A DNA stretch of 64,000 nucleotides from Mesorhizobium sp. B2-4-15 (GCF_006658505.1 NZ_VFUZ01000005.1:1-64000), one strand, 5' to 3'; counted from the first letter of the stretch, positions 32,231-37,622 are shown. Notes: generated by a model from the sequence alone, not told the origin. A program made the numbers and translations.

Positions 32231-32650
32231 ATGAATGTCGGCGACGCCGCCCACCGTTCAGGCCTGCCGGCCAAGACCATCCGTTACTATGAGGAGATCG
32301 GCCTGATCGCGCCCGCGCGCGCCGCCAATGGCTACCGCGACTATTCCGGCGACGACATCCACCGGCTGACGTTTTTGCGCCGCGCGCGCAACCTCGGCTT
32401 TTCCATCGACGATTGCCGCCAGTTGATGGCGCTCTACCAGGATCGCGGCCGCGCCAGCCACGACGTGCGCGAGATCGCCGCCGCCCATGTCACGGCGATC
32501 GAGGAGAAGGTACGCGAATTGCAGTCGATGCGCTCGACCCTGCAGAAACTGATCCACGCCTGCCACGGTGACGAGCGGCCGGATTGCCCGATCTTGGATG
32601 ATATGGCGGGGACGGTGGAACGCGAACCGACCGCCGTCGGACGTCAATAG
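32231..32650 (+). CDS. cueR: Copper-responsive MerR-family regulator CueR
   Basis: MerR-family activator (139 residues). The winged helix comes first (MNVGDAAHRSGLPAKTIRYY, then EEIGLIAPARAANGYRDYS), followed by the dimerisation helix and the metal loop. The loop has Cys111-x7-Cys119 (CHGDERPDC), the spacing that CueR uses for linear Cu(I) coordination. Ser76 stands where CueR has Ser77, the residue linked to preference for monovalent ions. The best target in this window is the 19-bp-spacer promoter at 21242-21272 upstream of copA. The gene stands apart from copA by about 11 kb. Confidence 0.9.
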   Translation: MNVGDAAHRSGLPAKTIRYYEEIGLIAPARAANGYRDYSGDDIHRLTFLRRARNLGFSIDDCRQLMALYQDRGRASHDVREIAAAHVTAIEEKVRELQSMRSTLQKLIHACHGDERPDCPILDDMAGTVEREPTAVGRQ

Positions 32651-33088: not shown

Positions 33089-33286
33089 TTACATGCCAAG
33101 GGCCTTCATTATCTGAATTCCCAGCAAGACCATCACCGACATGGTCATAAAAAATATTCGAACGAACCAAACAAACGTGATGCGTCTCTTTCGCAATAAC
33201 CAGCACACCGTAAATGCGATGCTCATCGGGAATACCAGAACAATGAGCACAAAGGCTGTCAAAGCCACAGCAAAGTCCCCCCACAA
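33089..33286 (-). CDS. Small two-helix membrane protein, probably decaying
   Basis: 65 residues with two hydrophobic segments (VALTAFVLIVLVFPMSIAF and FFMTMSVMVLLGIQIM). The C-terminal half aligns with the protein at 33607-33816: VCWLLRKRR...VRIFF...LLGIQIMKALG against VCVLLSQRY...IRLFF...LLEMQVAVALG. The frame starts with TTG and lacks the good ribosome site of the other copy, so the gene may be degraded. Its upstream flank carries the same 40-base hairpin unit as the other copy, in mirror orientation. Confidence 0.5.
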   Translation of the reverse strand: MWGDFAVALTAFVLIVLVFPMSIAFTVCWLLRKRRITFVWFVRIFFMTMSVMVLLGIQIMKALGM

Positions 33287-33301: not shown

Positions 33302-33341
33302 TAACGCGAACGGCCCGCCTTATGGAAGGGCAGGCCGTTCT
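33302..33341. repeat. 40-base inverted repeat, left arm
   Basis: Perfect reverse complement of 33535-33574, with 193 bases between. Each arm is itself a near-palindrome (aacggcctgccctt / ccat / aaggcgggccgtt), so each can fold alone. The two arms precede the two homologous small membrane genes, which point away from each other. Confidence 0.92.
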
Positions 33342-33441: not shown

Positions 33442-33467
33442 TTTGGTCTGTCAAATATATAATCGCC
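33442..33467. repeat. Transposon-end-like sequence (inner remnant)
   Basis: Twenty-one of 26 bases match the right inverted repeat of the IS1595-family element, ending in ataatcgcc immediately before the 8-base target duplication. Read outward, it behaves as the end of a second, related element whose body (the 33089-33286 gene and its hairpin) lies to the left. The present element therefore landed right at the end of a relative. Confidence 0.7.
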
Positions 33468-33475
33468 ATCGATAA
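33468..33475. repeat. Target site duplication, left copy
   Basis: Sequence atcgataa, identical to 37074-37081 on the other side of the element. Eight bases is the known duplication length of the IS1595 family. Confidence 0.92.
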
Positions 33476-33501
33476 GGCGATTATCTGGTTGACAAACCCA
33501 A
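33476..33501. repeat. Left terminal inverted repeat of the transposon
   Basis: Begins ggcgattatctggttgac; perfect reverse complement of 37048-37073 over 26 bases. Defines the left end of the element. Confidence 0.93.
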
Positions 33502-33534
33502 CGTTTGATGTTACAAGATAACAACTCGCGAGAC

Positions 33535-33574
33535 AGAACGGCCTGCCCTTCCATAAGGCGGGCCGTTCGCGTTA
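33535..33574. repeat. 40-base inverted repeat, right arm
   Basis: Lies inside the transposon, 34 bases in from the left terminal repeat, and is the exact reverse complement of 33302-33341. Located 32 bases before the start of the small membrane gene, it could fold in the 5' leader of that mRNA and affect its expression. Confidence 0.92.
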
Positions 33575-33606
33575 GGATTGCAGTTCCTGCTTAGGGAAGG
33601 GGAACT

Positions 33607-33816
33607 ATGTTTTCGCGAGGTGTCACGGTTGATCTAATTTTCACCGCTGCAGCGGGCGTCGCTACTATCGTATGCGTGCTCTTGTCTCAAAGGTACAAGG
33701 TCAAGCGGTCACTTCTTATCCGCTTGTTTTTCTTAATCATGTTTGGGGCAATTCTGCTGGAGATGCAGGTGGCAGTCGCTCTCGGGGTTTTTATTCCAAC
33801 ATCAGGCGCCCCATAG
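33607..33816 (+). CDS. Small two-helix membrane protein (transposon passenger)
   Basis: 69 residues with two hydrophobic segments (VDLIFTAAAGVATIVCVLL and LLIRLFFLIMFGAILLEM) separated by a short basic loop (SQRYKVKRS). A good ribosome site (gggaagggg) lies just before the ATG. No known family was recognised. It is paralogous to 33089-33286, and both are preceded by the same 40-base hairpin unit. It is the only passenger gene on the plus strand. Its size and topology would suit a holin-like or toxin-like membrane peptide, but nothing in the sequence proves that. Confidence 0.65.
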   Translation: MFSRGVTVDLIFTAAAGVATIVCVLLSQRYKVKRSLLIRLFFLIMFGAILLEMQVAVALGVFIPTSGAP

Positions 33817-33895
33817 GCGGGGCCTACCCAGCCGTAGGGGAATGGCTACAGGACTTGTAGGAGACCACCGGTTCCGCAAAATAGATCAATCTTCG

Positions 33896-34564
33896 CTATT
33901 CCTTGGGCTTCTTTTTCGGACGGTCATCTGGATGCACCCACCACTCCGGTCGAGCGTATTCCGCTGGTCGGCGGATATAGCCTTTTAGTCCGGGGACCAT
34001 CGCTGGCATGATGCACTCTTCCAGTTGGTCAAAGCTCATCACGAAATGAGAGATGCAATAGGGGATAACTTTGTCAGGAACGTTCTTCGTCGGCGGCGCC
34101 ACTCCCACCAATCCCTTCTTAGGGTGCCTGTCAGCGAAAAACTTGGCCGTTGCCGCTTGATCCGAATCGGCGCTCAGAAGAAACGCCCAATCGAAAATAT
34201 CGTCCTCGGCATCCATCATAAGCGACAGGGCAAGGTTGATATCCGACTGTTTCTCGCTCCTCTTTTTGCTCTCTGGATCGACTACGTGGTGCCCTTTCAG
34301 GATCGTCACGCCGCAAGCGATTTGGGCCGAATTGAAGCTGTTATGACGGTCCCGTTTCCCGGCATCGTCTTGAGGCACGGCTGTGCAGCAAACGGCCTTA
34401 ACCAGGGTTAGGCCGTTCTTCCGACAGAATATCTCTCCCAGTTTCCAAAGGCTCGCCCACTTAAGGAAGGCCTCGCCTTTTTCATGGATTGGATGGTAGA
34501 GGTTGAACCCGTCGACATAAAGCGCCGCACGTTTTCCCTCGGGCGGGTCTTGATCTTTCCCCAA
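33896..34564 (-). CDS. NYN-domain (LabA/DUF88) protein, transposon passenger
   Basis: A PIN-like NYN domain protein of 222 residues, a family of metal-dependent RNases. Acidic positions expected in the active site are visible: Asp18 with Asn21 (YVDGFNLY), Asp108 in EKQSDINLAL and Asp133/Asp135 in LLSADSDQAA. The C-terminus is basic (DDRPKKKPKE). No ATG is available at the N-terminus; the frame opens with TTG at 34564, just after an in-frame stop, with aagg about ten bases before it. Its role in the transposon is unknown: RNA cleavage in defence or element control are both possible. Confidence 0.83.
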   Translation of the reverse strand: MGKDQDPPEGKRAALYVDGFNLYHPIHEKGEAFLKWASLWKLGEIFCRKNGLTLVKAVCCTAVPQDDAGKRDRHNSFNSAQIACGVTILKGHHVVDPESKKRSEKQSDINLALSLMMDAEDDIFDWAFLLSADSDQAATAKFFADRHPKKGLVGVAPPTKNVPDKVIPYCISHFVMSFDQLEECIMPAMVPGLKGYIRRPAEYARPEWWVHPDDRPKKKPKE

Positions 34565-34658
34565 TTCTACACTACCTTGCGCTCACATCGTTGCGCTGCT
34601 CTCAGTGCAACCGCCCCAGCGCTCCGGCGACTGGGGTTTTCCTTTTTTAGGGCTATTT

Positions 34659-34829
34659 TCAATCAGTTTGGCGCTTTTGGCGCACCATATTCTTTATCTG
34701 TTCCGCCGTAAGTTTTGGTGCCTTGGCAATCTTCTTCACAACCGCCTCGAAGGATTCGTCGGATTGGTCGGTTTTCAGATCCCGCGCCGCTTCGCGGAAT
34801 TTGTCGATCTGCGGCTTTTTGTCGGGCAT
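34659..34829 (-). CDS. 56-aa charged protein (transposon passenger)
   Basis: Short gene of 57 codons including the stop. The protein starts MPDKKPQIDKFREAARDLKT and ends KNMVRQKRQTD, all helical and highly charged, with no membrane segment. It lies 95 bases upstream of the NYN gene on the same strand. The pattern IDKFREAARDL...DESFEAVVKKIAK is one I associate with small proteins encoded beside transposons in alphaproteobacteria, but I can give no function. Clean codon usage and a purposeful start support that it is real. Confidence 0.65.
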   Translation of the reverse strand: MPDKKPQIDKFREAARDLKTDQSDESFEAVVKKIAKAPKLTAEQIKNMVRQKRQTD

Positions 34830-34949
34830 GATCTCAACCTAGACGTTTTCAGGTGAATCTGATACGCAATGGCGCGAAGATGCCGATGCTATGGACGCAC
34901 CGCCACCTTCGTTCTTACCCCTTGTGGAAGGGGGCAGGGTGAACCGCCG

Positions 34950-34988
34950 TTAGGCGGCTACCGGTATTCTCCGGGTCATGAACCACAT
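34950..34988 (-). CDS. Possible 12-codon leader peptide
   Basis: A minimal frame, MWFMTRRIPVAA, preceded at the right distance by a strong ribosome site (aaggagg). Its stop overlaps a stem (gccgcctaacggcggtt). It lies upstream of the 56-aa gene on the same strand. A strong site before so short a frame suggests translation-coupled control such as attenuation, or a chance remnant. Confidence 0.35.
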   Translation of the reverse strand: MWFMTRRIPVAA

Positions 34989-35061
34989 GACACATCCTCC
35001 TTTCTCGCTTGGGCTCTGTGTCGCGACCGCCGGCAAGCTAAACCGCGACACACTCGATCTC

Positions 35062-35904
35062 TTAGGCAGCGGCCTCCTCATCGGAGCCGCTGCTTTCGGT
35101 TTCAGGAAGAGGTAGAGAATACGTGTCTCCCTCTTTAACTAGATTTCCCCTCTCCCTCTCCCTAGCGAGGAGATTATAGAGTGAGTTCCGGTTCTTGGTA
35201 ACAGCCAAGTCGGGAGGAGGATCGTTTAGCAAACTCTCGACGATTTCGCTTGTGGTCAGCCCCTTCGGATGAAGCGAGAGAAGTCGGGCGACAGCCGCTT
35301 CGTTTGGAGACATCTGCCAACTGTTGCTCGCCGCTGTATAGGGCGTGTCTTCAACGAGTCCGGCGGCGACATCATTCATGAAACGTTTGTAGCCAGAGGG
35401 CGAGAATAGACGACCGTTGTGTTTGACGATCATCTGCCGCGATTCTAGTTTTGCAATCCCTCCATAGAAAGCCTTATCCGTCCGTTGAAGCGTTTCGCCT
35501 AGGTGGGTCTTCAAAAGACCTTCCTTCAATTCCTGGTACGTTAAGCCGCGTCCTTCATCTTGAATGACCCTATGGATTGTAGCGGTCCATGTCTGGTTGC
35601 TGGCGCGCCTTGTGGCTGGCGTTGCTATCGCGCTCTTGGATGGTACCTGCGGCTTTTCGGGCTCCGGCACACTCGCCGCACCCGGCTTTTCGTCATCAAT
35701 GGAGACCGGGCTCTCGTCGTCCATCGCATCCATGAACGCCGACGCCGCTTCGATCAGCTTGTTTAGCCGTGTGCGCTTGTTCTTGATGCGCGCCTCCTCT
35801 TCGGCATGACGCGCCTTCATAGCGGACTCCTCCGTAACAAGCTGCTCAAGCTGAGCTTGCCATTTTCGGACGTCGGCGTGAGTGGGGAATGCGTGGTCGC
35901 TCAT
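35062..35904 (-). CDS. Coiled-coil, double winged-helix protein (transposon passenger)
   Basis: A 280-residue protein without a family I can name. Residues about 15-58 form a charged coiled coil (QLEQLVTEESAMKARHAEEE and following). A low-complexity Pro/Ala/Ser linker follows to about 100. Two winged-helix-like units come next: about 105-172 (TATIHRVIQDEGRGLTYQEL ... GGIAKLESRQMIVKHNGRLF) and about 195-268 (SPNEAAVARLLSLHPKGLTT ... LYNLLARERERGNLVKEGDT). The layout suggests a DNA-binding regulator or a transposition accessory factor. It lies between the transposase and the other passengers, on the same strand. Confidence 0.7.
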   Translation of the reverse strand: MSDHAFPTHADVRKWQAQLEQLVTEESAMKARHAEEEARIKNKRTRLNKLIEAASAFMDAMDDESPVSIDDEKPGAASVPEPEKPQVPSKSAIATPATRRASNQTWTATIHRVIQDEGRGLTYQELKEGLLKTHLGETLQRTDKAFYGGIAKLESRQMIVKHNGRLFSPSGYKRFMNDVAAGLVEDTPYTAASNSWQMSPNEAAVARLLSLHPKGLTTSEIVESLLNDPPPDLAVTKNRNSLYNLLARERERGNLVKEGDTYSLPLPETESSGSDEEAAA

Positions 35905-36058
35905 TTTGCCTCTACCTCTTGGCTGTCATGTAACAGCCTCCAAGTGAGTCGGCAAGCCACATAGGGGAGGGATAACTATGAGCTAGTTCTTGCGCCTTGC
36001 ATATCGCCAGAGCGGCAATTCCAACTGCACCGCCTTTCGGAAGTGTGTTCGCTTCGCG

Positions 36059-37012
36059 TCAAGCAGGTCTTTGATAGGTGAGGCGCTTACCAGCGGCACC
36101 CTTCAACGCGATGAAAGCGCGGGTGCCGTCATCCACGCCCATGGCAATACGGTTCGAATAGCGGAAGTCGAATTCGGCAAGGTAGCGGTGCAGATGCTGT
36201 TCGCCACAATGCTGATAGACGCCTTTCATGCCGCGCTTGAAGATGCTGTAGAAGCCTTCGACGGTGTTCGTGTGGATGGTCTTTTCGCCTTCGTAGCGCA
36301 CGTATTCGTCCTTGGAATGCGTGACGACATCGTGGGAAGCGAATTCCTGGCCCGCGCGGCGATACATGCCAGCTTCGTCAGTCATCAAGGCGCTTTCCTT
36401 GGCGATGTTGGCGCGAACGATAGGCATGACGGTGCCAATGCGGGCGGTATCGACGTGAAAGGAACGGGCGCGGCCACCACGTTCGACAAGCGTGAAGACA
36501 GAGTTCTTGTGCGCGCCGCCACCAGTCTTAACCGGAGTGCCCTTCAAGCGACCGATATACGTCTCGTCAACTTCCACCGTCTTGCCGTTGCCGCCCATTG
36601 GGGCAAGCTCGCCAGACGCCATTGCAAGGCGAATGCGGTGGCACAGGAACCAAGCGGCCTCATAGGTGCATTCGAGTATGCGGTGCATCTGGTGGGCGCT
36701 GATGCCCTTCTTTGAGGCGCACATAAGGTGGATAGCCTGTAGCCACTTGGTCAGCGGCAAATGGCTTTCCTCAAAGATCGAACCCATGCGGACGGTGAAC
36801 TGCGAACGGCAGGCGCTGCACTTGTACAGGCCGTGACGCTCGACACCGTTCGGGTTCTTTTTGGAAGGCTTGGTGCGAACGCCCTTCAAGGCGTAGTGGC
36901 GATCAACGCTACCGCACTTCGGGCAAACAGGACCATTCGGCCACAGTATGGATTCCACATGCTCGAAAGCCTTGGCTTCGTCGTGGAATTCGGGGCGGGA
37001 CAGAACGGACAT
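36059..37012 (-). CDS. IS1595-family (ISXO2-like) transposase
   Basis: Complete DDE-type transposase of 317 residues. The N-terminal zinc ribbon has Cys30-x2-Cys33 and Cys65-x2-Cys68 (CPKCGS and CSACRS). The catalytic core shows Asp149 in VEVDETYIG, Asp212 in LMTDEAGMYRR and Glu252 in HTNTVEGFYSIFKRG. Between ribbon and core lies a helix-turn-helix region (KGISAHQMHRILECTYEAAW). The gene ends 990 bases from nowhere else than the inner passengers, and its start is 36 bases inside the right terminal repeat. No frameshift or stop interrupts it. Confidence 0.96.
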   Translation of the reverse strand: MSVLSRPEFHDEAKAFEHVESILWPNGPVCPKCGSVDRHYALKGVRTKPSKKNPNGVERHGLYKCSACRSQFTVRMGSIFEESHLPLTKWLQAIHLMCASKKGISAHQMHRILECTYEAAWFLCHRIRLAMASGELAPMGGNGKTVEVDETYIGRLKGTPVKTGGGAHKNSVFTLVERGGRARSFHVDTARIGTVMPIVRANIAKESALMTDEAGMYRRAGQEFASHDVVTHSKDEYVRYEGEKTIHTNTVEGFYSIFKRGMKGVYQHCGEQHLHRYLAEFDFRYSNRIAMGVDDGTRAFIALKGAAGKRLTYQRPA

Positions 37013-37047
37013 GGAAATCTCCTATGCCCTTACCCTACGTAATCTAT

Positions 37048-37073
37048 TTGGGTTTGTCAACCAGATAATCGCC
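37048..37073. repeat. Right terminal inverted repeat of the transposon
   Basis: Ends gtcaaccagataatcgcc; pairs perfectly with 33476-33501. It lies just upstream of the transposase start codon (minus strand), so the transposase promoter must overlap this end. Confidence 0.93.
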
Positions 37074-37081
37074 ATCGATAA
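37074..37081. repeat. Target site duplication, right copy
   Basis: Sequence atcgataa, identical to 33468-33475. Restoring one copy joins tctgtcaaatatataatcgcc to the DNA in front of mmcB. Confidence 0.92.
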
Positions 37082-37121
37082 ACAGGTTCAAACCGTGAAC
37101 AAAATCAGGCATGGTGCCGCC

Positions 37122-37622
37122 ATGCCGATCATCTCGCCGATTCCCCTCAACCCCCTCATCGACGGACGCCAGTCCGAACGCGCGCTACTGGTGCGGCGCG
37201 GCGTGCAGCGGCTGCTGATGCAGATGGGCGCCCATGTGCTGCCTGAACTTTCGCTGGCCACGGGCCGGCGCGCCGATCTCGTTGCGCTGACGCGCCAGGG
37301 CGACATCTGGATCATCGAGATCAAATCCTCGATCGAGGATTTCAGGGTCGACCGCAAATGGCCCGACTACCGGCTGCATTCCGACCGCTTCTTCTTCGCC
37401 ACCCATCCCGGCGTGCCGGCGGACATCTTTCCGGAAGAGTGCGGATTCATCCTCTCCGACGGCTATGGCGCCGAAATCCTGCGCGACGCGCCGGAGCACC
37501 GCATGGTGGCGGCGACGCGCAAGGCGCTGATGCTGCGCATCGCGCGCGCCGGTGCCTCGCGGCTGCTGGCTGCGGAACTGGCCGGTGTGTCGGTGCCGGT
37601 GCTGGAGGGGGAGAGCGAGTAG
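37122..37622 (+). CDS. mmcB: Putative DNA repair endonuclease MmcB
   Basis: PD-(D/E)xK-fold protein of 166 residues, matching the MmcB family linked in Caulobacter to mitomycin C damage repair. The catalytic pattern is in RRADLVALTRQGDIWIIEIK (Asp, Glu-x-Lys), followed by SSIEDFRVDRKWPDY. The start used here (MPIISPIPLNPL) fits the family; the frame is open to 36948 inside the transposon, but those residues are not part of the family. The transposon ends 48 bases before the start, so the native promoter is probably disrupted and may be replaced by one inside the element. Confidence 0.9.
   Translation: MPIISPIPLNPLIDGRQSERALLVRRGVQRLLMQMGAHVLPELSLATGRRADLVALTRQGDIWIIEIKSSIEDFRVDRKWPDYRLHSDRFFFATHPGVPADIFPEECGFILSDGYGAEILRDAPEHRMVAATRKALMLRIARAGASRLLAAELAGVSVPVLEGESE

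Follow-up and report, generated by a model that had tools for sequence, protein, structure and literature searches.

Transposons of the IS1595 family have a DDE transposase with a zinc ribbon, short inverted repeats and 8-bp direct repeats, and some members of the family carry passenger genes. At attTn7, a benign chromosomal site is reused by successive cargo-bearing Tn7-like transposons, by which the older ones are displaced, and comM is an integration hotspot of AbaR-type islands. Readable target codes are rare among DDE transposons, and the known codes point to the end of a gene or to a promoter. Defence cargo has been described for Tn7-like transposons (PMC8649781), and for TnGBS, ISLre2 and ISKra4, which have Mutator-type transposases, the transposase signature correlates with targeting (PMC3942029). 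Here, a 64,000-nt stretch of DNA from Mesorhizobium sp. B2-4-15 (GCF_006658505.1, NZ_VFUZ01000005.1:1-64000; hereafter, the window) was analysed. It contains a 3598-bp IS1595-family cargo transposon (33476..37073, no strand assigned) next to an mmcB-like gene. Comparison of this element with its relatives makes it highly probable that it belongs to a clade of IS1595-family transposons, built of a transposase and a p56 core with two cargo slots, that chooses its target by a sequence resembling the SOS (LexA) box, the operator of DNA-repair genes.

The window group resembles the IS1595 family in all of the features listed above and differs from it in the conserved p56 protein, the two-slot cargo layout and the choice of LexA boxes as targets. 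Like TnGBS, ISLre2 and ISKra4, it shows a correlation between transposase and target; however, those elements have an unrelated transposase and lie 15-17 bp from the -35 element of sigma-A promoters, whereas in the window group a LexA box is found 12 bp from the tip of elements in both orientations. The reuse of one benign site by successive cargo-bearing elements is shared with Tn7-like transposons at attTn7, but the window group has just one DDE protein, inserts without control of orientation and can use many boxes where Tn7-like elements use one gene, and the other open reading frames (ORFs) of the window element had no match to Tns-type machinery (TnsA/B/C/D or a TnsD-like selector) in Pfam or NCBIfam. 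AbaR-type islands use Tn7-type machinery to enter the comM gene itself, whereas the window group is found in the comM promoter beside an SOS box. A target rule of this kind in IS1595, or any SOS-box-targeted transposon, was not found in the literature searched, the coverage of which was incomplete.

The ends of the window element were exact, as an earlier note on this DNA had claimed. The left (33476..33501, plus strand) and right (37048..37073, minus strand) terminal inverted repeats of 26 bp were complementary at 26/26 positions, and the target duplication atcgataa was present on both sides (33468..33475 and 37074..37081, no strand assigned). Repeats of 8 bp, a trait of the IS1595 family, also flanked the catalogued sister elements. 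The right repeat is the tip on the mmcB side, and exactly 12 bp beyond it, in front of the mmcB-like gene (37122..37622, plus strand), starts the conserved operator-like motif GTTCAAACCGTGAAC (37086..37100, plus strand), which may be a variant LexA box and a docking signal. The gene, which defines the site, has homologs of 85-100% in nearly all genomes of the genus, and we take it to be mmcB from its likeness to the MmcB family. The other border of the site is a merR-like gene (32231..32650, plus strand; named from its sequence).

The interval between merR and mmcB was read in 132 genomes of the genus. It was empty in 13 of them, in which the two genes were separated by 50-120 bp, and reached up to 7 kb in others; loci that had been collected for the tip alone shared the window's flanks on the merR side as well as on the mmcB side. 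The GTTCAAACCGTGAAC motif was kept with at most 3 mismatches in 132/132 genomes, empty sites included. A tip (at most 6 mismatches) was found beside the motif in 81/132 genomes and was exactly 12 bp away in 69/81, with a random rate of 0/2095. The 8-mer between tip and motif varied from genome to genome, yet each was repeated at the far end of its element. The transposase pointed toward the gene in 9 cases and away from it in 11, and in G126 a decayed copy of the window's own element occupied the same place at mmcB in the opposite orientation. Because the 8-mers differ, the orientations are mixed and the G126 copy is reversed, the mmcB insertions are, as judged by this comparison, repeated events and not one inherited insertion. 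In one genome (L047, G005), the 8-mers flanking the mmcB element, TTTTTAAC and GTTAAAAA, were the same sequence in opposite orientations, a pattern resembling the flip of a segment between inverted ends.

The elements at mmcB were also stacked. In the window, the tip of an older, diverged element (33442..33467, minus strand), which matches the new tip at 81% and the common tip of the genus, GGCGATTATATATTTGACAGACC, with 0 mismatches in 23 nt, abuts the outer side of the left duplication; this old element was probably displaced outward from mmcB by the present insertion. A search that allowed 7-9 bp between tips gave 27 candidate junctions of the type old tip-8 bp-new tip, and every one that could be placed was at mmcB. 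The junction 8-mer was the same as the mmcB-flank 8-mer in at least 12 cases (the window, L042, L045, L046, L050, L065, L068, L082, L132, L134, L160, twice, and L190), and in L160 two complete units lay in tandem, with repeats of a single 8-mer bounding them. At junctions with degenerate ends, the 8-mers had diverged. Such an arrangement is what a putative fixed cut site predicts, with each newcomer landing between the resident and mmcB, and the unit closest to mmcB would be the youngest.

Stacking was at first read as targeting of the resident tip, in which a newcomer is guided by the inverted repeat of a related resident element and inserts directly next to it, mmcB being merely an inherited landing pad. 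This agrees with the presence of an old tip at mmcB in nearly every genome and with the position of new elements exactly 8 bp from it. However, comM and other box sites had no resident tip and showed the same offset to the box, and tip-8 bp-tip junctions were absent among about 12 elements of the genus away from mmcB. Moreover, in L164 and L191 the spacing to the old tip deviated by one position, and that to the motif was still 12 bp. This model was dropped as the main one after box-side insertions without a resident tip were found, and we regard it as very improbable.

The target was clearer away from mmcB. The LexA box of Alphaproteobacteria is GTTCN7GTTC/GAACN7GAAC (PMC3091678; PMC9578287). 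In non-mmcB elements of the genus and its family, the tip was followed by the 8-bp duplication, 4 bp and a canonical GAAC-N7-GAAC. An unbiased scan of named genomes added 79 loci, some from the same genomes, and the statistics were computed on 89 distinct elements with 178 flanks and offsets up to 134 bp. Counted from the outer edge of the duplication, the exact box GAACN7GAAC stood at +4 bp in 13 cases and at some other offset in 5, and it occurred 0 times in reverse; with at least 7/8 positions required, 16 boxes were at +4, and the other offsets averaged 0.11 each. The box was at comM in nine genomes (L044, L180, L185, L217, L218, L223, L224, L227 and L252) and elsewhere at an rmuC-like gene (L222), a promoter common to L187 and L188, a radC-like gene (L306) and L220, these genes being named from their sequences. 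Without comM, at least three promoter types with an exact box remained (L187/L188, L220 and L306), and three more had 7/8 (L049, L186 and L222).

It was further found that the box precedes the element. The comM promoter of G121 reads GTTCTTGGAATGTTC-TTGA-TCTGATCG, with the 8-mer in single copy, and G011 has TCTGATCG twice, flanking the element; empty comM promoters had the box, 4 bp and one copy of the 8-mer. The empty-site comparison proposed in the earlier note was thus obtained for sister elements and not from the window copy itself. Elsewhere in the family, other genera had GTTCAAANCGTGAAC at mmcB or, in a few, a canonical LexA box in a similar position, which supports, and does not prove, the reading of the mmcB motif as a LexA operator. 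In Caulobacter, mmcB is SOS-regulated (PMC9578287). Separately, comM of G013 seemed to be split by about 32 kb (G013:C49:20692-52990), perhaps by an island inside the gene.

Every site at mmcB and comM lies in a promoter region, and fixed-distance promoter targeting is known from TnGBS and ISLre2 (PMC3942029); the distance might accordingly be measured from a sigma-70 promoter, which the boxes would match by overlap. Against this, the box lies between the element and the gene at mmcB, whereas at comM the element lies between the box and the gene. Because this order differs, the direction of the promoter differs between the two sites while the polarity of the box is constant. In addition, the L186 insertion is apparently within a coding region. 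Distance from a promoter is therefore an unlikely measure, with only a slight chance of being correct.

The choice of box followed the transposase. The transposase of the window element (317 amino acids, 36059..37012, minus strand) was assigned to IS1595, in agreement with the earlier note, by Pfam DDE_Tnp_IS1595 (PF12762, 1.1e-31) and NCBIfam transpos_IS1595 (NF033547, 1e-55), both above the curated cut-offs, and has Zn_ribbon_IS1595 at its N-terminus (PF12760, 1.1e-13, 51.3 bits with a cut-off of 25.4). The tree, built from 84 transposases, contained a group of 41 with 20 mmcB, 15 box and 6 elements with neither; of the other 43, 42 had neither and 1 had a box (L306). The target trait changed 7 times on the tree and 27 times in shuffles. 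At position 156, seven residues after the invariant Asp149, 34/34 transposases that target had Leu, and nearly all of the 42 others compared had Lys, Glu, Asp or Asn. The window transposase falls inside the targeting clade both by the tree and by its Leu156, and residue 156 is a candidate determinant of target choice. Sister elements from Rhodobacterales and other orders had the same core genes and AT-rich targets without boxes. Since close sister clades differ in their targets and are separated by one residue near the catalytic Asp, the basis of targeting is directly testable.

The cargo of these elements is often defence-like, and it was considered whether insertion is random and copies near SOS genes persist through SOS-linked expression of the cargo. 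However, selection cannot yield a single-base offset (69/81 tips; 13/18 exact boxes), orientation was near random, and the sister clade with similar cargo showed no box. We consider this explanation hardly credible. Together, the offset, polarity, linkage to the transposase clade, pre-existing boxes and 8-mer reuse show, on comparative grounds, fixed-offset targeting beside SOS/LexA-box-like sequences.

Several points weigh against target choice by such boxes. All of the evidence for targeting is comparative. Homologous comM promoters account for nine of the 13 exact boxes, so there are fewer independent promoter types than boxes, about 4 with an exact box and 3 more with 7/8. The mmcB motif, GTTC-N7-GAAC, is not a direct repeat and has 6/8 of the canonical positions; GTTCAAACCGTGAAC at the box offset of the window scored 6/8, whereas sister elements scored 8/8, and binding of LexA at mmcB is putative. 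Six members of the targeting clade, some of them old, degenerate or reassigned, have no box, and L306 has one, possibly by chance, yet stands outside the clade. Finally, the L186 site is apparently inside an hsdS-like coding region, which favours sequence over promoter context.

Under targeting by the box, the transposition complex would dock on GAAC-N7-GAAC (GTTC-N7-GAAC at mmcB) from one side, and the ends would be joined 12 and 4 bp from the box in either orientation, the intervening 8 bp becoming the direct repeats. With the box unharmed and the spacing constant, the next element could reuse the same 8 bp and insert on the box side of the resident, and the older one would be moved outward and decay. 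At mmcB, insertion keeps the box, promoter and gene together, whereas at comM the element separates the box from the gene; such tolerance of insertion may be the reason why only mmcB accumulates stacks. Programmed reuse of a harmless site would explain the exchange and layering of small defence-type genes at a fixed rhizobial address.

LexA is attractive as a bound accessory protein because recognition appears to be one-sided and outside the duplicated 8 bp, and recognition through bound LexA rather than by the transposase alone is slightly favoured. Direct recognition of the box sequence by the transposase is possible, and the L186 insertion favours such plain sequence recognition. It is proposed more tentatively, with a chance somewhat short of even, that DNA-bound LexA guides the landing of the complex and thereby couples the choice of target, and possibly its timing, to the SOS response, and that SOS promoters, above all that of mmcB, are ordered stores of defence-type cargo in which each newcomer is next to the gene. 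SOS control of the element through internal boxes was also considered and rejected, as SOS boxes were not enriched inside the elements (6 boxes in 45 elements, about as many as chance would give).

The five ORFs that the earlier note had read in the element were all open where it placed them, and they follow the layout tip-transposase-cargo slot 1-p56-cargo slot 2-tip, which each of the related elements shares. Of its four passengers, three are exchangeable cargo; the fourth, p56 (56 amino acids, 34659..34829, minus strand), has homologs in 85/87 related elements, encoded on the same strand as the transposase, and, by this distribution, is a core gene of the transposon and not a passenger. As a target selector, p56 was dropped, being present also in box-less sister elements; because these non-targeting sisters carry it, p56 alone does not set the target. 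Recurrence of all four genes as a unit, a check proposed in the earlier note, was limited to the decayed G126 copy.

Slot 1 holds a 280-amino-acid coiled-coil protein (35062..35904, minus strand), which was found beyond the window only in the L036 copy; its description as a winged-helix protein received weak support (HARE-HTH, E 0.0047, below the cut-off). Slot 2 holds an NYN-domain protein (33896..34564, minus strand) and a small membrane protein of 69 amino acids (33607..33816, plus strand). The NYN domain, read earlier as a nuclease, was matched marginally (Pfam 3.2e-5, 24.9 bits with a cut-off of 24.2), and the protein matched PADLOC HEC-09 (P0003, 1.3e-24, residues 11-202 on profile positions 2-201 of 203); homologs were present in 11/147 genomes of the genus. 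ORFs similar to the membrane protein occurred at the mmcB site in L055, L056, L080, L094, L118, L130 and others. The cargo of sister elements included BstA (L046 and L065), Beta protein/PD-Lambda-2_C (L041 and L042), RhuM/PDC-S05 (L164) and PDC-S13 (L252), as well as a Dam methylase and PIN; DUF3800/PDC-M04A accounted for 11/72 cargo proteins, SocA/Panacea for 5 and dCTP deaminase for 2. From the PADLOC matches of the window NYN protein and the sister elements, defence- or addiction-type cargo is likely for the element family, and the cargo of the window may have a defence role, with the NYN protein as a HEC-09 candidate defence protein. The earlier suggestion of a defence or addiction module was supported to this extent, for the NYN gene and the element family and not for the three cargo genes as one module. 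The sequence between tips at mmcB is a way to discover new cargo.

Outside the element, the remnant of the older unit contains a small membrane ORF (33089..33286, minus strand). A 40-nt perfect inverted repeat straddles the old-tip junction: the copy at 33535..33574 (plus strand) is upstream of the 69-amino-acid membrane ORF, and that at 33302-33341 is upstream of the remnant ORF. A similar palindrome accompanied by an ORF was also seen at mmcB in L094 and L118. The earlier note mentions neither this repeat nor the old tip nor the motif beside mmcB. The exact tip of the window element occurred nowhere else in the home genome, in which an isolated copy of the common tip, free of mismatches, was found (L048, G000:C23:150951-150973), with no partner within the 16 kb read.

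Other target patterns were observed among the sister elements. In a Devosiaceae/Rhizobiaceae sister group (L298, L300, L303 and L308), insertion was into or near TAGG-N8-CCTA (TAGG-8-CCCA in L308), apparently another target code within the same IS1595 group. In L235, L255, L262, L265, L266, L280 and L311, A/T-tract 8-mers lay beside hairpin-forming flanks, like intrinsic terminators; flanks folding below -8 kcal/mol were found at 26/53 non-box sites and at 5/36 box or mmcB sites. Elements of this alphaproteobacterial group were present in metagenome-assembled genomes labelled Acidimicrobiales and Gammaproteobacteria (L278 and L313), where misbinning is likely. In L264, L284 and L314 (Hyphomonadaceae and a Roseobacter relative), the duplication was between TGTCA and TGACA, with TGTTA in L264. 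In L228 and L231, from two genera, an inverted-repeat unit was in the same 8-mer CTTGAGGG within CCCCCTCCCCCTTGAGGGGAGGGG; the target was perhaps a repeated palindrome.

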